Assembly (NCBI GenBank): GCA_026874595.1
Contig: CM049314.1
Coordinates: forward strand, 57,400,300 to 57,464,299
Direction: 5' to 3'
Length of the DNA stretch: 64,000 nt
DNA from: Sipunculus nudus
Taxonomy: Eukaryota; Annelida; Sipuncula; Golfingiida; Sipunculidae
The position numbers and the translations under genes were made by a program. Under the pieces are notes generated by a model. The model made no database searches and had not been told where the DNA came from. It worked only from the letters and a program-made list of their open reading frames with translations. Shown piece by piece: positions 12,479 through 55,148 of the stretch (positions are counted from its first letter, which is position 1; each line of letters starts with the position of its first letter).

Positions 12479-12492
12479 AGTGAGGATTAACA

Positions 12493-14145
12493 ATGAAGAA
12501 GAAAAGCTACACCAGTTGCCCATCACATTTTCCTTTAATCTACAAATCATGTCCTGAACTATTAGAGGAACGATTCAGAGCAAATCCAGAGAAAGTAGCA
12601 ATAAAGATATACAAGGAAAATTTGAAAGCAAGCACGCTAAGCTATGCAGAACTGTTCCAGGGGTCTCTGGAAGTTGCTGCGGCACTCCGACGACTGATTC
12701 CTGATCTCAAATGTGGTGACAAGATTGGAATCATCGGATCTAACACCACCGATCTCCACCTGAGCATACATGCTATATTCTCACTGGGAGCCGTAGTGGT
12801 GCTCATTCCACAACATGCCAAAACTGGAAAGGAATTGCTTACTTTTCTACATACAACACATTGCAAGTGCTTGGTATTTCAGCAGGATGTTGTAGATAAT
12901 TCAATTCTTGAGCCACTGCCAACACAAGGAATTAAACTTGTCGGTTATGGTGCAGGTACTGGTAAAAAGAACTTAACAGGAATAAGCCTATTAGAGGAAT
13001 CGCGAGACACTTTGATTTCATCTGAAATAAACGAAACTAAGAAGATCAAGGACGAACTTCTTCCAGACTCGGCAGCTGCTGTGTTTTTCACATCAGGTAG
13101 CACTGGAATCCCAAAGGCGGTTATTTATTCGCATTTCCAGCTGATTAACAACGTCAGTGTTTGCGGCAAACAGTTGTCATTGACCGAAAAAGACATCTTC
13201 TTCACAGAAAGGGCCACTATCCACGTGGCTCCATTCTTTGCGTCACTGTGGTTCCTGGTGTCAGACTTATTATACGTTTCATTGGATACAAATGTTAACA
13301 AAACCGATATTGAAACAATCCTTGCCATTTTAAAGAAAGAAAGGTGTACAGCAGCAATGTTATTTGGTTATTTGCTTTTTGATATATTGAAAGAAGGAGA
13401 ACGGGTAAAACCATACCTTACTTCGTTACGGGTTCTGATCACAGGCGGTCAAACCTTGAACGTTCAGACTGCAATCAACATCCAAAGGATTTTGCCAGAT
13501 ATACATTTTGCGAATGGATATGGAGCAACAGAGATTGGAAATGCTGCCGTCAACATGCAACCACTGGAAGACCAGGAATTGGGTTTCATAGGACCACCGT
13601 TGCCAAACTATGAAATGAAAATTGTAGGAGATCATGGGGAGACTTTACCCCTAGGTGAGATCGGCGAACTTCATTCAAGAAGCCTTTTGATGGCTCTCGG
13701 GTACATGCACGGAGAGGGTAGTCAAAAGATGACGTCACCAGAGGGATGGTATGCCACCGGCGACATGGCTTCAATGAACGACAGTGGTCATATCAAGATT
13801 GTTGGCAGAAAGGTTGATTTTATAAAACGTGGCGCGATTAAGATATTTCCTGCAGAGATTGAAAATATTATCTCTGAACATCCTGAAATCAGAGGTGTAC
13901 AGGTGATTGGCATCCCCGACCAACGACTTGGAGAAGAACTTTATGCATGCGTGATTCTAAAGCAGGGCAGCACAATGAAGGAGGCGGATCTGTTGGAATG
14001 GTTTGCTGGAAAATTCAAAGATTCCAAAGTTGGTGATAACAGAGCACCTAAGTTTGTAGAAATATTTGAAGACTTTCCACGTCTTCCTTCTGGAAAGATT
14101 TCTAGAAAAGAACTGAAAGTAAAAGTCAATGGACGTTTTAACTGA
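12493..14145 (+). CDS. Acyl-CoA synthetase (AMP-forming), ACSF2-like
   Basis: The enzyme should activate a fatty or other carboxylic acid to its acyl-AMP and then acyl-CoA. It has 550 residues in one exon, a normal length for the family. The adenylation motifs are intact: P-loop FFTSGSTGIPKAV at 198-210, NGYGATEIG at 341-349, GWYATGD at 418-424, the GRK...IKRG...PAEIE hinge region at 438-457, and LPSGKISRKE with the catalytic lysine at 535. A splice acceptor (tttttcag, ending 12478) lies 14 bases before the ATG, so a 5' untranslated exon lies upstream and was not located. I see no peroxisomal SKL-type end and no clear mitochondrial presequence. It is related to the fragments at 3335 and 54733. 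The substrate cannot be told from sequence. Confidence 0.95.
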   Translation: MKKKSYTSCPSHFPLIYKSCPELLEERFRANPEKVAIKIYKENLKASTLSYAELFQGSLEVAAALRRLIPDLKCGDKIGIIGSNTTDLHLSIHAIFSLGAVVVLIPQHAKTGKELLTFLHTTHCKCLVFQQDVVDNSILEPLPTQGIKLVGYGAGTGKKNLTGISLLEESRDTLISSEINETKKIKDELLPDSAAAVFFTSGSTGIPKAVIYSHFQLINNVSVCGKQLSLTEKDIFFTERATIHVAPFFASLWFLVSDLLYVSLDTNVNKTDIETILAILKKERCTAAMLFGYLLFDILKEGERVKPYLTSLRVLITGGQTLNVQTAINIQRILPDIHFANGYGATEIGNAAVNMQPLEDQELGFIGPPLPNYEMKIVGDHGETLPLGEIGELHSRSLLMALGYMHGEGSQKMTSPEGWYATGDMASMNDSGHIKIVGRKVDFIKRGAIKIFPAEIENIISEHPEIRGVQVIGIPDQRLGEELYACVILKQGSTMKEADLLEWFAGKFKDSKVGDNRAPKFVEIFEDFPRLPSGKISRKELKVKVNGRFN

Positions 14146-19423: not shown

Positions 19424-21420
19424 TGCATGTAATACGTTTGATTGAATTGAGAAAGATTCTGAGTGAATAGCATATATCCTATAATTTGTGTAATCCGTTC
19501 AATATTCTACATGGAATAAAAGACGCGATAAAGGAGCGATAACAAAAACCAAAACCAATTCTTACCTCTGTTACGATACCGGTATTCCTGAGCGAATCCT
19601 TAAAGACATTTGCCCGTATAACACGCCCACTAGCGACGTGATAAAGAACTACAGCTTGCCAGGTGCCGTCCCCAACCCGGTAGTCATAATGATATATCTT
19701 GAAATTATCTGAAAGATACATATAATGTTTTGCCATTGAAACCAAGGGATTTTTTTCAGAGATTACTTGTCATTACTTAAAATGAATTTACTTGATAAAA
19801 ATTATAAACATTTAGAAAGGTAATGAATGAATTGCACGGGTAGATGATGGGTTTTAGGGGATTTATATTGCTGCAATCCGCTATAGGTTAAAAGGCATTT
19901 TGAAACATTTAATAGGCCGAGAAGAGGGCAAGGAAATCCAATTAAATCCTCCCCCGAGTGTAAGGTCTATTTGTACTCCATAGGATGTGCCAAAACCTTA
20001 TCGATATTATTAAAAGCTTATTATACATATGACTGCTGACTATTGTTATGAAGGAAATGCAACTTTACTGCAGGAACCTGTTGTAACCGGGGTTTTACTC
20101 AGGCACAGGAAAGTTTTAGCATACGAAATGCTCAACAACACAGATTACATTTCTAGCATACGAAAGAGTTCTTCTCCCACTAACACTTCACGTAAACAAA
20201 TTATAAAGACACATCAAAAACTGTCAACAGACCAGATCCTTCTGACCAAATAACGAAATGGTAATTGCCTTCGCTGCTCGGGTTTTTGTCTTCAGCAACT
20301 AGCTTGTTTTCCCGGACATTTAGAACCAATGGCTGTCCGTTTCTCCCTGAACAGGTAAGTGTCGCCATCTCGCGACCGGAAACACCTATCATCGGCCACA
20401 CGTTAAACTAGTGCGAGAAATTTTCAACACAGATCCTATGCCTGCTGTCAAGAGTAATGAACGTGTCTGCAAAAAGTTAATTTAAATAATGATATAGGGA
20501 CTATTTTCTGGTGCCCTCAAAAACTAGATTAAACATAAGGCTATCTTGTCATCACCCAGATACATTAATTGCTTGTATATTTCTCCAAAGCAGTTATATT
20601 TCCAAATACTATTATCTAATTACAAGTGTTTTACACATGTGTTGATGACCTTCATGTGGTTAATACATCTGCAATGTTACAGTTTATTGTGAAGTGACAT
20701 TAATTTGTTGGTTAGCTGGTCAGATATTCTTTCCAATCCTAGTAGCTTAGCTGCATGGTGATCATTAATACCATTATATTGCATTATATTTACTCACCGG
20801 GCCGGGCAACAAGTTCCAATTTGACGTCACTTCCGCTTCTTCTGAAGAAGTAGAGTAAATTCTTGGGCTGAACACTCCACGTTCTATGCAAGTCGTGGCA
20901 ACCGACCTTTACGGGAAAACATTAAAACTACTCTCGACAGCCATTCATATATTACAAAAAAAGTGAAAAAAAACTTTTTCATGATGCTAAGTTATCTGAA
21001 GTTCGATTAATAACAATATATAGGTGTATTAAGATAGGTTAAGAAGAATGTTCACAGAGAGTTTATATTTTGAGGGAATAGCTAATTCGGAACAAATATG
21101 TCTCTGTTCCAAAGTGCACCTTTCAAAGTAATATCATTGATGCCAACTGTGGTATCGGTATTGGCCAACATATTAAGATGAATGGCGGGATCTAGGAACA
21201 TGCTGTTACCGAATAAAGACTTACTTACACTTTGCATTACAAATTATACAGAAATTATCATCAAATTAAAGATCTATGAACGACCTATAAAGACCTGAAA
21301 CCTATAAACGTGTTTTGAATAATTCACATTTTGTCGCCTGAGTACGCATACTGTCCTGTCACATACTGCACAAGAATCGATAATGATCGATAATAATTGG
21401 ACATCACTTCATAATTGTGT
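18985..21420 (-). pseudogene. Inverted partial copy of the unknown multi-exon gene
   Basis: This block is the reverse complement of 27373-27622 joined to 32421-34650. Four exons of the gene on the + strand recur with identical lengths: 20798-20906 (109), 20233-20466 (234), 19566-19708 (143) and 19106-19214 (109). Splice sites are conserved. The copy is dead: the 234-base exon has a TAG at 20410-20408 where the + copy has a tryptophan codon. The 19106-19214 exon has a TGA at 19169-19167 where the + copy has glycine. The first exons and the last exon of the + gene are absent. It also preserves the TTAA site (21173-21176) without the transposon. Confidence 0.8.
19385..19419. repeat. (AT)n microsatellite
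   Basis: A pure AT dinucleotide run. The equivalent run in the inverted copy is at 34170-34213. Confidence 0.95.
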
Positions 21421-25274: not shown

Positions 25275-28200
25275 CTGACTGTCGGCCAGAAAGATGGATG
25301 TGTTCCCTGAAATGTGTGACAAAGTCACGTGCATGTGCTATCTGGCAGGTAGTATAAAAATAACTTATTCTTAATGATAAGTTATGACTTCAGCAATAAT
25401 CATAACCCCATGCATATAAAACCTGAGATAAAGAAGGCTTATCAATAACATATTCTTATCAAATGGATACTCTCACTCTCATTTAATAGATAGTGCCACC
25501 AACAGGTAGTGGACCTATCCTTAAAAAATCTGCAGCATCGCCTCTGATTCAAGGCTTTAACCTTTGGCCTTGTTCAGTTTCTTTTAATGCACATTAGCAG
25601 TTTTTTTTTGTCAACATCAAAAGATGGATTACAATCCTTCTACTGTTTTAGGTTTCTCAGTCAGATAATACCATTGCCAAGTGCTTCTGTACAGTGTTTG
25701 ATCAAGCCGTTACAACAAAAAATGCAAGTCTGTCGATCGGTTACTTCTGTGATTCATGGAGCCATGAAATGTGGGAAGGATTTTATCAAGAGCCCTGACG
25801 ACGATGATGTTGAAATGATTGTGCCGACGGAGAAGTAATTTTCACTGATTCTGCGAAAATTTTTAATAAATAGTTTATCTTGATTCGCACAATATTTTAT
25901 GTAAGCGTATAAATCTGAAGCATTTTTTTCACGTTTGTACTCTCGTACACATGCGTTTAAGAAAAAAATGAAACAAACGTGCAGCAAGTAACATTAGAAT
26001 TCCTTTGTTATTGAAATTACTTATAAAAGATTTATAACGTTTTCATTGTTGTAAATTAAACAAAAAGGGAGAGAATATAGTTTAAGCATACGATCTTGAG
26101 ATGTACGGTAGTCCATGATTTAGATATTATTTCATACAAGTGTATTTAATATGTAATAAACAAACCTTTCAACTGCAGGATTGAAGCTCCACGTGATTGT
26201 TTGGAGAGGTACACGGTGTATATGCAAGACAAGGAATCTCATCTTTACTGGGAAGCGGACGGCAATGGACAGATATTAATGACATCCCTCGACTTCGCAA
26301 ACATTAAAAAGTGTGAGTAAACGGTATAATCAATTCTATAAAAATACTAACTGTATATGAATTTTGACTTTCCTGAGAAATGGTAATATTATATGTCTTC
26401 AGATGTGACTGATTTACCCAATGTCTGTCCTCTTTCCTTTCAATAGAGCAGTTTCTGGGACCGATCCTTCCTCATTAAGATTAAATGACGAAAATGGGTA
26501 AACTTGTTTTAATATTTCTTGTCCTGATTAAAATATTCACAAAACGTTTAACCCGTTGAGACCGATGTTCACTATATCAAATGGGTAAGTCAAATATATA
26601 GAAATTTTGAAACTGAAAATATAGCATTTTAAGCGAGTGTAGGAGTACACAATGATAGAGTGATAGTGTAAGCATAAGTTGCACTTACATTGTAACATAT
26701 CATTAGTTGTCCATATTGTGAATTAATGATAATTAATGTAAAATAGTGTTCCGATAATCATCATAAACATTGGCATAACCATAATATGCAAATCCAACTT
26801 GTGTAATGGAATTTGCAACTTCTCATTTAAATGAGACGGTAAGAACTAGTTTTCAGTTGTTTTATAATGATTGTTTGTATGACACGATATCTAATGGAGC
26901 ATTAATAGTTGGCATCCGTTAGAAAGCACTGGAGGTGACTTCTTTGACTAACTTAATGACATTCTCGATCAATTTCACTTTCAAGGCATTTTTAATTTAT
27001 ACTATTGATACTATGGTTGTTTATAAAAAGTGATAAACCTATTACGTGAACTACTAACTGAACGTCGTAATATTTTAGACCGTTTTCGGCTGTTTGTCTA
27101 TCGTTACAACAAAGGTAAACATCCAGCAGTGGTGGTTATATCTACAACTGACGGGAGCAATCAGTATGTAGACATACCGAACTCACATCATAATCTTAAG
27201 TTAAAGGTAAGGCTGTCGCATTCTGTCCAAATAAACAGGTAAAAATATATGCTAAAAGATAATTTTTGGAGAGCAGTAGAATGCACCAAATTCGTACCTG
27301 GTCGTGACCAGTAAGTCGGAGATGTTTATTAAAATGTATCGACATACACCTATATTCTTTTCAATGGGTTCTTGTCACAATTATGAAGTGATGTCCAATC
27401 ATTATCGATCATTATTGATTCTTGAGCAGTATGTGACAGGAGATGTATGCGTACTAAGGCGACAAAATGTGAATTTTTCAAAACAGGTTTATAGGTTTAA
27501 GGTCTTTATAGGTCTTAATAGGTCTTTAATTTGATGATAATTTCTGTCATATTTATAATGCAAAGTGTAAATAAGACCTTATTCGGTAACATCAGGTAAC
27601 TAGATCCCGCCATTAATCTTAAAGTCCAAGTCTCAGCACGGAGGTCGATTAGTGTCATATGCCCGATTTCTATGTATCAAAACACGATGTTATGTCCATT
27701 TAACATTAATATAGCAATTTAATCAATTAATACGACAATTTGAAACTGGCGGGCCGAATACACTCCGGAAACTGCCGAAAGCCAAGGGGGAAACCGTGAC
27801 GTCACGTGTGGAAGTCGTCTCACACAAGCATCATGGCGGTGATGCAAAGAAAATAATCCGATGAAACTTCCTATGCGTAAGTGACAACCAAGCGTCCACC
27901 GACTATGGTTCAAAATAAGTTATTTCGGAAGTATGTCAGAAAGTGATTGTAGTGATGTAGAATTTGAAAATCCTTGAGATATTGAACCATTTCGATCTGA
28001 GCCATTGGCTCGACGAGGCGAGATCGAAGGAGGGTGTACCGAGTCTGACAGTGACAGCCGTGTCAACAAAGAATCCGATGAACCGTCTCGGGCGTCTATG
28101 GGAGCAGGCACCAATGACTGGTAATTATTTTATTTTACTCTTACACTGAGTACATCTCAAGTTTCTGTAATTGGGGCAGGTTGATTATTACACTGAAATA

Positions 28201-31161
28201 AATATCGCTCAACCAACGCATGTAGCACTGAATAATTTATATGACAGTCATAGGTTTTCCTGGAAAGATGGGTCCCAGCTAGCCCGTTCCTGTGATTTAT
28301 AAAAATGCCATTACTTATCAGTCAGTGGTCATATCTTGTTGATTTAAGAACCATATTGAATAAGATCCTGGAGCAAAAACCAATCTTGCAGTGTATTTAT
28401 TATCTGAAAATCTTTATTTTGAAAAAATACTGATGTACCAAATATTAAAGTTGTCGTTTGACAAGTGACTAAATGTGAATTCTCAACCTGGATGCTATTA
28501 AAATTGTAAAATTATTTTTACAATACTAATAATGATAACATTATAAAATTTATACTTTTTATTAAAAAATTAAATTTTCACTTTTATTTTTGCACATGTT
28601 ACATGCACATATATATAATTATTAAATATTAAAAAAGAATAAATTTGCAAATACTAGATATATACTAGTAATATTCAGGGGCGGATCCAGGATTTAGAAA
28701 AAGGGGGCATCTCCAGGATTTAGAAAAAAGGGGGGGTCCAACCCAGGAGGACAAATGAAAACCCTAAAAAATGGTCCTCAGGTCTGAAAAAGGGGGGGCC
28801 AGGCAGCAATTTTAGGTCTGAAGCCTTTTAAAAAAACGTTGTTTCTGATGAAAAAAAAAGGGGGGGGGTCCGGACCCCCTGGTTCCGCTTCTGATATTTA
28901 CAGATCTTTTATGCATTCCAATAGCCTTGCAAGGGTTATTGTTTTCACTCAATTCTCCGTGTGTGCAGGGGTGTCAATATAGGTAGGAGTGGGGGGGGGG
29001 GGGCAGGGATATATATCCCCCACTCTTTTTGGCAAGAAGGAAAAGAATGGTCAGTGTAATCACCCCCCCCCACACCACCACACACACACTTTTCTGAGAA
29101 TATATTATATTTTACAAATGAAATATATTAATTAATTGAATAGTATACTTTTGTTCACTTTACGATCTTATATATGCCTTTTTTCTAACTTTGATTATCC
29201 TCCCATGCCTGTCATCCCCCCTCCAACCTTGCGTATCATATCAACACCCTGCAAATCACCCCTCCCCCCATCCTTGAAGCCAGTGTGTGTGTGTGTGCAA
29301 GGTATCTTAATAATTGCATTACAGATGTTATTGCAGTTTTACATATAGATCAGTTAAGTGAAAATCTCAGGTGATTTCATTTTGGTGTAAATTCAACTCT
29401 GGGGTTAATGGTTTATGGAGTTTTATAGCTTATTTGTTTACACCTAAGGACATATGTAACCAGATGAACCTATATATGGCCATCTTTGGAGTGTAGTCAT
29501 GATGTCACTCCACATGCCAATCCCCTCAAAGGTGTCAGTAAATCTTCATACAGCAAGGCAGACCAAGTTTGTTGTTCATTGTGTTTATAGCCAAGGGCAG
29601 CTATATCCCAATGTCCAGGGGTGATTTTCAAAATAATCTCAGTGGAAAAAAAGTTCCCAGGAATAACACAGGTTAATTTACATTTCAGAACACTACCTCT
29701 GAACATAATCTTCCACTCAGGACATGCATCCCCAATCAGACACTTTTTAATTTTTCTTTAATCATCCTTTGAGATATTGACATTACTTATGATACACAGC
29801 ATGACTTTTTGTAGGAAATACAGATACACCACATTCAGGCAGCAGGTTTGATGGAACTGGGGATTCCTTGGAAGACACATCAGGATACCACTACCAGCAT
29901 GTGCAGTGAAAAGGATTGAGCAGGCATTTATGTCACATGATGGGACATAACTTTATAAAGGGTTCAGATGCCCTAGATGGAACTGATGGGTGTTCATCCT
30001 TGAGCACATTGATGATATATTAGTTGATAAGATGTAACAATGAACTTCATTATTTCAGTGCACAAGATCTTACACCACAATTATTAGAGCATATTAAATC
30101 AATTCTTGCAGTCAAATGCACACATATCCTGTATAATAGCAGTAATCAAGTTTTTACAATTACAAGATGCAGAAATGGAACCTTCAAGTCCATGTGCACA
30201 ATGTTGTGTTTGAGCTCAAGTTTACCAGCAGGCATCTGGCGAATATAAGTTTGATTCCGCCACTTCTTGTGCAGGTTACAGTTGTTGCATATCTCGCTTA
30301 CCTGGACTGCTGTTCCTTAACAAGAATCACCTGATCGTGTGTACAAGATGTGCTGTTTGGACAGATGCTAAACAACTCCATCAGTTGTGAGTGGAATAAA
30401 ATAAATTTGGCACTTGATCTTGGTGTATTTCTTCATATAAGCTAATGCTTTTGGACCATAAAGGTCCTTAAATAGGGCCACGCAGTCAAAAATATCCTCA
30501 AATCCAAACCCTGTTGCCATATTGGATATCACATTGGCCTGAAACTTATCACCCCAAATAACCTGAATGGGATCTATATTCAGAAAATTTCTAAAAGATT
30601 ACTTAGATGAGGCATTAAGAGGTTCTTAAGGTACATGTATGTGCTTGGAAGCTGCATTGGATTTGGATTTATAGGAATGATGGATGGACCAAGGACTGAT
30701 GGACAGACATCAAGGCAATTATTCTTGAGCGGAGCCTGAATAAAGTCAGTCAGCATGAACAGATTGAATAAACTTATCTCATTTTCTTTACATTATATTT
30801 ATATACTGATATAAGAAAAATCTATAATAAATATCAAATTTATAAAGATTAAATATTTAACAATAAGTTCATTGAAGGATGAATCGGTATCATAATCTTC
30901 ATCATCAGAAGGGAAGTATTCATCATCTTTATAAACTGGTGGTGCTTCATCATCATCATCATCATTATCATCTGCTTCTTCTTCTTCACTGAAGATGCTG
31001 CTATCTTCTGTATTATGGCCGACCAGAGCTTCACCAATCAGTGAGCACTGGACACCAGCATTTTTTGTGGATACATTCACTGGGCAACCTGAATTTGAAA
31101 CAATATGCCATTTTCATTGATTTCAAGGACAACTGAAAGATAACTTTTTCATTTGTAAATT

Positions 31162-31214
<53 letters not shown>

Positions 31215-34168
31215 TAACATAACTTGTCATAAGATCTGTTCACACAATATTCATAGTATTTATGCTTTATTAAAATAAAATTGTGCATGTGAAATAATAT
31301 AGGGTAAATAAGGCAAAACGTCACAACTGTAAGCATTAAATGATTATTTAAATCAGAGTGGCCACTGTAATTTGTTAACAAACAATGGGGGTTATGTACA
31401 CACCCCTTGACGCACCCCTAATTTGCTGGCTGACTGCCAGGCGATTTGGCAGGAGTGGTGGGTGTTCACAGGTTTCCCTGGAACAAAAGGGCATAATCCC
31501 AGCTTAAAAAAATGCAACAACTTTGCACTAGGCCTCGGAGTAGATTAAGCACAAAAACCGTGTTTACATGGGCGATAATAAGGTATATTCAAATCACGTA
31601 ATAATTGCTCAAAATTTAAAATATATAAATAACTTTCCCTTTTAGCAGTCAATTTACTCACAGTTATCAGGTGGAGCCCTTTTCTTGTGACCTAGCAGGC
31701 TTCACACCTTTTCCCAGCGAGTACCTCGGGCGCTTGGCGGCGTAATATTGTCCCGGCCCTTGACTGAAGTTGAAGCAAGGCTGGATCCACTCTCAGTCGG
31801 CCTTGCAGCGGGTTCTTGTGGATTTATACTCGGAATTGCCCCTTGTATCAGATCTAGTTGTTTTCTTAAATATCCGGCTTACCATTGCTGATAGTTTTTA
31901 AAATCGTCAGGAATCCGGAATTGTGCCCCATACATGACACTGGAAAGTTTTGCAAGGAGTTCCCGACCTACAATCGGCTCGTCTCTGTCTGACAGTTCCC
32001 ACTTTTTTTCCTTAAACGTACGTCTTTCGGCCAATTGTGGACGTTCACACTATCCTTGTTGGTATTATTGCATCCACTAAGAACATCTCGCTTCGTCATT
32101 TTGATACTGTGTAAGATCTACAGTGTTTGTCGAGGGGAAAAAACACGGCAGTCAAGGATGCAGACCGGCAAGACGCGGCATGTTGACCCATGTGATGTTT
32201 ACCCAGCGGTGCCACACGTGACGTCACTGAAGCCACGCCCACCGCGTATCACCGAGTGCACCTTTACACTCAGGAGCGTGATCACCGTGATGTTTCACGG
32301 ATAAAATGGAGCATAAATTCGATCTCGTTCAGCTTGAAACTGTGTTGTAAGCACTGTATTTACTTATTAAAAGGGTACATGACGCTTTTTTAACTTATAA
32401 AAGTGCATGAAACTTGGACTTTAATATTTTGGCCAATACCGAAACCACAGTTGGCATCAATGATATTACTTTGAAAGGTGCACTTTGGAAAAGAGACATA
32501 TATGTTCCGAATAAGTTATTCCCTTCAAATATAAACTCTCTGTGAACATTCTTCTTAACCAATCTTAATACACCTATAAATTGTTATTAATCGAACCCCA
32601 GATAACTTAGCATCCTGACAAAGTTTTTTTTTGCTTTCTGTTGGTAATTTTTTCAATGATAATAAATTTCTATTAAATCTAATCAATCAATAAGACCTCG
32701 GCTAATGTTTTCAAAATAACAAAACATTGGTTATTATATGAATGGCTGTCGAGAGTAGTTTTAATGAATTCCCGTAAAGGTCGGTTGTCGCGACTTGCAT
32801 AGAACGTGGAGTGTTCAACCCAAAAATTTACTCTACTTCTTCAGAAGAAGCGGAAGTGACGTCAAATTTGAACTTGTTGCCCGGCCCGGTGAGTACATAT
32901 AATGCAGTATAATGGTATTATTGTTCACCATACAGCTAAGCCACTATGATTGAAGAGAATATCTGACCTGCTAACCAAATAATAAATGTCATAATAATCT
33001 GTAACATTGCAAATGTGTTAACCACATGAAGGTCATCAACACATGTGTAAAACTCTTGTAATTAGATAATAGTATTTGGAAATATTAACTGCTTTGGCTA
33101 AATATACAAGCAGACTTTTTGCAGACACGTTCATTACTCTTGACAGCAGGCATAGGATCTGTGTTAAAAATTTCCCGCACTGGTTTAACGTGTGGCCGAT
33201 GATAGGTGTTTCCGGTCGCGAGATGGCGACACTTACCTGTTCAGGGAGAAACGGTCAGCCATTGGTTCTAAATGTCCGGGAAAACAAGCTAGTTGCTGAA
33301 GACAAAAACCCGAGCAGCGAAGGCAATTACCATTTCGTTATTTGGTCAGAAAGATCTGGTCTGTTGACAGTTTTTGATGTATCTTTATAATTTGCTTACG
33401 TGAAGTGTTAGTGGGAGAAGAACTCCTTCGTATGCTAGAAATGTAATCTTTGTTGTTAAGCATTTCGTATGCTAAAACTTTCCTGTGCCTGAGTAAAACC
33501 CCGGTTACAACAGGTTCCTGCAGTAAAGTTGCATTTCCTTCATAACAATAGTCAACAGACATATGTATAATAAGCTTTTAATAATATCGATAGGCACAGC
33601 CTTGGAATTACATATAGACCTTACACTAGGGGGAGGATTTAGTTGGTTTCCTTGCCCCCTTCTCGGCCTATTAAATGTTTTAAAATGCCTTTTAAACTAT
33701 AGCGGATTGCAGCAATATAAATCCCCTAAAACCCATCATCTACCCGTGTAATATGACATTCATTACCTTTTTAAATGTATATAATTTTTATCAAGTAAAT
33801 TCATTTTAAGTAATGACAAGTAATCTCTAAAAAAATCCCTTGGTTTCAAGGGCAAAATGTTATATGTATCTTTCAGATAACTTCCAGATATATCATTATG
33901 ACTACCGGGTTGGGGATGCCACCTGGCAAGCTGTAGTTCTTTATCACGTCGCTAGTGGGCGTGTTATACGGGCAAATGTCTTTACGTATTCGCTCAGGAA
34001 TACCGGTATCGTAACAGAGGTAGGAATTGGTTTTGGTTTTTGTTATCGCTCCTTTATCGCAAGTCTTTTTTTCCATGTATAATATTGAACGGATAACACA
34101 AATTATAGGATATATGCTATTCACTCAGAATCTTTCTCAATTCAATCAAACGTATGACATGCATATTG

Positions 34169-54645: not shown

Positions 54646-54732
54646 TGTTTCAACAACCCATACTATTAATTTTTTTATTTTTTTTTCGTTAGGATGTCAC
54701 TCAGATAAATGCGTAGAGATGATATTCAAAGC

Positions 54733-55148
54733 AGACGTCACCTCACGGTTGGTATGCCACAGGCGACATGGCCTCGAAGAACGACATTGGTCATATCAAG
54801 ATCGAAGTCAGATATGTTGATATAATAAAACGGGCCACGATAACGATATCTCCAGCAGAAGTTGAAAATATAATTTGTGAACATCCTGATATTTCTGCCA
54901 TTCAAGCAATTGGCGTCCCCAGGGAACGACTAGGAGAAGAGCTTTACGCGTGCGTGATTCCGAAGCAGGGCAGCACGGTGAAGGAAGCAGACTTGTTGGA
55001 TTGGTTTGCTGGAAGATTCGGAGATTCCAAAGTTGGACATTACAGAGAGACGAAGTATGTGGAAATATTTGAAGATTCTCCACGTCTCCCCTCTGGAAAG
55101 ATGTCGAGAAAAGAATTGAAAGCAAATGTTCTTGCTAGTTTTAAATGA
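54733..55148 (+). pseudogene. Acyl-CoA synthetase 3' fragment
   Basis: The frame resumes at the 'GWYATGDMA' motif and runs to a stop at 55148. It closely matches residues 418-550 of the intact enzyme, including 'LGEELYACVIPKQGST' and 'RLPSGKMSRKEL' with the catalytic lysine. The A8 motif is damaged: GRK has become EVRY and the invariant glycine of KRGA is alanine (KRAT). Everything upstream, including the ATP-binding P-loop, is missing. An acceptor-like 'tttcgttag' at 54685-54693 might make it an exon, but no partner exons are seen. Its 3' flank is the duplicated spacer, copy B. Confidence 0.8.

Follow-up and report, generated by a model that had tools for sequence, protein, structure and literature searches.

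P2X7 is an immune receptor whose C-terminal domain is of unusual origin. Passages of Kojima and Bao (2022; PMC9587614) describe the KolX proteins of Kol0 transposons as clearly similar to positions 476-595 of human P2X7 and trace P2X7 to a P2X4-like gene that became fused with KolX. The same passages give the ends of Kolobok elements as 5'-RR..YY-3', in contrast to those of piggyBac, mention a few piggyBac-type families with a KolX-like gene, and describe KolobokP as having terminal direct repeats that are long, about 450 or 660 bp, and a His-Me nuclease, not KolX. Kolobok domestication in Xenopus is the subject of a further paper (PMC6004289). From another direction, passages of Rump et al. 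(2020; PMC7016195) present the ballast (ZCD) domain as free-standing proteins across animals, term two linked markers an ancestral synteny across Metazoa and report from Ixodes a protein in which one domain is given as TAHP, which we read as THAP; the stem 'transpos' is absent from the main text of that paper. Among the matches listed by our literature search, PMC9587614 alone ties P2X7 to this kind of transposon, and it alone contains both KolX and Kolobok.

The window analysed here, a stretch of 64,000 nucleotides from Sipunculus nudus, contains an element at 27623..32420 that an earlier note had described as a complete TTAA transposon carrying a P2X7-type and a THAP-type gene. We read it, with a probability of about 0.92, as a non-autonomous derivative that arose from a Kol0-type Kolobok by loss of internal sequence, whose ancestor had convergent KolX and THAP/DDE transposase genes and which would itself have been moved in trans. 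The features on which this reading draws are the following:

20951..21419, reverse strand: inverted paralogue with an empty TTAA site at 21173-21176
27619..27622: left target-site duplication TTAA (sequence and end scan)
27623..32420: the element, 4798 bp, read as a non-autonomous Kol0-type Kolobok (ends, empty site, at least 40 genomic copies)
27623..27635, forward strand: left terminal inverted repeat, AGTCCAAGTCTCA
27933..28120, forward strand: candidate KolX first exon (frame conserved across copies; putative exon and splice site)
29789..29974, forward strand: remnant of the KolX last exon, resembling the C-terminal part of the P2X7 ballast domain, with two in-frame stops (Pfam, tblastn)
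30210..30218: junction at which a longer relative on C3 has about 6.7 kb extra (element positions 2588-2596)
30239..30316, reverse strand: remnant of the transposase zinc-finger region, ahead of the catalytic core (tblastn with an exon of locus L038, E=4.1e-5)
30799..31113, reverse strand: acidic stretch, as pointed out in the earlier note (reading frame; placed in the transposase gene by position only)
31165..31213: AT microsatellite within the element
31968..32117, reverse strand: remnant of the THAP-type N-terminus of the transposase, its frame broken here (copy L040 against the L038 THAP exon)
32408..32420, reverse strand: right terminal inverted repeat, AGTCCAAGTTTCA
32421..32424: right target-site duplication TTAA (sequence and end scan)

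The boundaries proposed earlier proved exact: TTAA adjoins the element on either side, its ends are inverted repeats, and the inverted paralogue retains an unoccupied site. When the flanks of 27623-32420 were joined, they aligned across the join with window positions 21419-20951 over 473 bp at 91% identity, and a single TTAA (21173-21176) was present at the join position, indicating that the empty site is real. The inverted repeats are short, and the termini of the element are AG..CT, which fits the 5'-RR..YY-3' pattern of Kolobok. As a separate observation, window positions 28676-28893 contain long G runs, and about 220 bp are absent at this place from copies L027, L028 and L040; this stretch is probably a later insertion.

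The copies with the same ends for which a search had been proposed do exist. The family has at least 40 copies in the 1.43-Gb genome (best 40 of 96 candidates scored; a further search behind this count scored the best 40 of 63), and the genome-wide counts are lower bounds. An end pattern was scanned against 22 loci, namely 20 copies, which include the window insertion and two segmental duplicates of it, plus L037 and L040; it matched both ends in 17 of them, one end in four and none in one. With a pattern permitting any four bases at that place, TTAA preceded 38 of 38 matched ends, six ends of the 22 loci being unmatched. Another end pattern was able to match right ends, and its last letters exclude the commonest left ends. 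Locus L046, picked up through the end pattern, was discarded, as it resembles the window element at one end only.

The mean divergence of 14 young copies was 2.4% (K2P, 0.4-3.2%); from a set of 21, two short copies were dropped before alignment, and L010, L011, L027, L028 and L040 were taken out of the 19 that were aligned. The copy in the window and two others, about 53 and 107 kb from it, have at least 500 bp of flank per side in common at 99% identity or more, so that they represent a single insertion (window, C9:57480881 and C9:57535208, spaced by 53-54 kb) multiplied by segmental duplication. The left flank of the window insertion was not found at any of 17 other loci tested. Elsewhere in the window, the frame at 12484-14145 encodes an AMP-binding enzyme (Pfam, E=5e-52), and 54723-55148 appears by eye to be a partial paralogue of it, which fits local duplication.

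The convergent arrangement of a P2X7-type and a THAP-type gene that had been described for the element is present, but as remnants only, the THAP part being seen by way of L040 and L037. By tblastn, THAP was recognisable in these older copies only (L040, E=3.8e-5 with the L038 THAP exon; L037, E=1.6e-5), and translation in all six frames with stops masked gave no Pfam match to THAP (PF05485) in the window. Tblastn with the exons of L038 and L039 as queries (E 0.01) detected none of the D1, D2, E and THAP exons in the window element; the DDD/E transposase with a C/DxxH signature that characterizes Kolobok was thus not detected there, and we class the element as a non-autonomous derivative and no more. 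A marginal tblastn match in the element (E=0.008, other strand) was taken as chance, and ten single reading frames gave weak, unrelated Pfam matches only.

On the KolX side, the last exon scored 16.3 bits (E=0.0095) against P2RX7_C (PF20478) in the six-frame search with stops masked, below the Pfam cut-off of 23.5; no other family was matched in that search. The match is real all the same, the stretch being 49-52% identical to the homologous exon of L038 (E=5.5e-16 in one search and 2.4e-19 by tblastn in another), and that exon passes the cut-off (38.3 bits). Thus, the P2X7-type gene that had been claimed for the element is borne out by a homologous last exon, but as a remnant with two stops, and the profile searches that had been suggested for both genes returned one score below the cut-off and, for THAP, nothing in the window. 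A structure sequence search with the same stretch matched no solved structure, and the Cys-rich (zinc-binding) exon of KolX was not found in the window element by tblastn with the L038 and L039 exons (E 0.01). The KolX first exon is a candidate assigned from its position and conserved frame only; an in-frame stop was present in five of the 20 loci with a readable frame (22 loci, the motif having failed on two).

The KolX last exon gave 89 matches in the genome (all 115 candidates scored). Among the 29 matches of at least 100 bits, which include three segmental duplicates on C9, 28 had stops, mostly one TGA and one TAA. The sole match without a stop belongs to L040 (C17:8746912), which was ruled out as a form with a working core, since the catalytic core is absent from it too. 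The stops are largely common across copies (19 of the 22 loci were readable with the motif used), so spread continued after the death of the gene, and spread without working genes points in turn to a transposase supplied in trans. We propose that the ancestor would have had two convergent genes, KolX, coding for a P2X7 ballast-type protein, and the THAP/DDE transposase, and that the derivative would have lost the catalytic core and the zinc-binding exon of KolX, neither of which is detectable, while its ends were kept. Related full elements would then have provided the Kolobok transposase for its spread. We regard KolX as a transposon-encoded accessory protein whose role would most likely be to help the transposase.

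An autonomous, intact Kolobok at 27623-32420 would likewise account for the exact ends and for the traces of both genes, but the lack of a catalytic-core match in the element, the stops common to its copies and a length 6.7 kb below that of the same-ended C3 relative make this highly improbable. In agreement with this, the term 'complete' used earlier does not hold in the sense of a working element, given that no D1/D2/E exon was found and both genes are broken. The assignment to Kolobok at TTAA, on the other hand, was confirmed by the TTAA duplications, the RR..YY ends and the remnant matching a Kolobok transposase exon. The duplication of TTAA would also be compatible with a piggyBac-type element carrying a KolX-like gene, a reading to which we give just as little credence as to the intact Kolobok: the AG..CT ends are RR..YY, of the Kolobok and not the piggyBac type (PMC9587614), what is left of the transposase resembles an exon from a Kolobok, the six-frame search gave no Pfam match to a piggyBac transposase, and the same-ended C3 relative supplies a Kolobok core in part.

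It is likewise very unlikely that a host P2X7-like gene was caught by chance in an unrelated transposon. The P2X7-type exons of the window family are mostly dead, as expected of passenger sequence, but the same convergent pair occurs in several Kolobok families of this genome, and KolX has been described as a standing gene of Kol0 (PMC9587614). A convergent Kolobok core was located within 10 kb of 19 of the 30 P2RX7_C matches, compared with a rough chance expectation of 0.0002 per match; the 19 are not independent and form, by eye, about ten groups of related copies. These figures derive from 30 P2RX7_C matches (all 79 candidates scored, two matches representing one locus) and 61 core matches (all 89 candidates scored), and no further P2RX7_C match among the 30 had a core within 10 kb in any other orientation. 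A THAP match was present by at least 10 of the 30, using 18 of 124 THAP matches chosen by eye as near or strong (best 150 of 213 candidates scored). The remaining 11 P2RX7_C matches had no core nearby, and at one of them there was a THAP match. Two tandem P2RX7_C matches at C5:20376724 and C5:20379063 (133 bits, one stop each, no core within 10 kb) are candidates for stranded KolX copies.

To return to the preferred reading, a non-autonomous Kol0-type derivative, Koloboks with both genes are present elsewhere in this genome. Intact copies carrying both genes, which the earlier note had proposed to look for, were not found with the ends of the window element; the L039 family, with other ends, has both. 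At L039 (C8), KolX is on one strand and the convergent transposase includes THAP (60.2 bits); its frames, when inspected by eye for the signature given in PMC9587614, show the D1, D2/DxWH and E regions. Its KolX last exon scored 29.1 bits in the genome search, above the P2RX7_C cut-off, and two KolX-side frames submitted alone, one of them in the wrong frame, gave no Pfam match. With a query from L039 (best 40 of 2497 candidates scored), identity was 100% (rounded) on C8 (the locus itself), C15 and C11, 95% on C10 and 94% on C12. Over another 471 bases at the left end, the C15 and C11 copies differed from that on C8 at one and two positions, respectively. All three are flanked by TTAA, their flanks beyond it are all different, and the ends are AGGTTATAGGAAACGAT and, inverted, AGATCATAGGAAACGAT. 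The L039 family is thus a case of recent mobility of an element bearing a P2X7-type gene.

L038 likewise has THAP (56.7 bits), the D1, D2 and DxWH motifs and the KolX last exon that passes the Pfam cut-off; this exon matched P2X7 structures weakly (E=0.013), and its Cys-rich exon did not retrieve a P2X7 structure in the structure sequence search. An open frame of the KolX class at L052 matched P2X7 structures with E=3.3e-26, and a Kolobok core match is present 4.3 kb downstream of it on the other strand.

Among longer relatives of the window element, the C3 locus (L047 with the flanking L050 and L051) is colinear with it in ten pieces of 73-87% identity and has identical termini, AGTCCAA, the flanks having decayed to TAAA and TTGA. 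This locus matched the Cys-rich and last exons of KolX, THAP, the zinc-finger and D1-side exon, and D2; neither the D1 motif itself nor the E exon was matched, and its core match contains two stops. Some of the extra 6.7 kb may have been inserted at that locus later. Because the C3 relative is decayed and gave no match to the D1 motif or the E exon, the loss in the window element is not traceable to one deletion. A more distant relative, L048 (C16), matched D1, D2, the zinc finger, E and both KolX exons, and the THAP exon was not found in the stretch examined. No same-ended autonomous partner with intact genes was found in this genome. The 8.1 kb copy L037 was rejected as the autonomous form: Pfam matched nothing in its six frames at E 0.1, and its transposase matches end before the D1 motif. 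The segment by which the 8.1 kb copies are longer contains a second THAP-like match (L037:4804-4965, E=2.6e-12), perhaps a nested element. L049 was also set aside, its blastn match being confined to element positions 1567-2512.

The suggestion that a mobile element could show how the P2X7 domain spread is upheld by L039, a Kolobok with both genes, and not by the window copy, which is defective; the link itself is already in print in passages of Kojima and Bao (2022; PMC9587614). The main conclusion has thus been published before, and what is gained here is further evidence in its favour, together with a reading of the reported synteny that can be tested. In this genome the proposed source of the P2X7 domain is seen in a recently mobile state, as three all but identical copies that carry both genes, and the dead derivatives illustrate how remnants of a P2X7-type domain spread. 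As far as our searches show, what is new is the window family, the loss of its core and the count, for this genome, of P2RX7_C matches linked to a Kolobok core. We would put at even odds the combined proposal that the free-standing P2X7-ballast genes of invertebrates are mostly transposon genes and that the synteny of Rump et al. is a Kolobok-internal gene pair, not host gene order; the markers in question would then be Kolobok transposases.

Compared with the Kol0 lineage (the Kolobok-1_XT group in passages of PMC9587614), the window element likewise has TTAA, RR..YY ends and remnants of KolX and the transposase. KolX of that lineage resembles the P2X7 ballast domain, whereas neither a transposase core nor the zinc exon of KolX is detectable in the window family. 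With KolobokP it has the superfamily in common but not the long terminal direct repeats, as the element, compared with the window, matched only itself over its full length and AT repeats. The free-standing ballast (ZCD) genes, finally, contain a domain identical in kind and are treated as host genes in passages of Rump et al. (2020; PMC7016195), whereas in this genome 19 of the 30 P2RX7_C matches adjoin a Kolobok transposase core.
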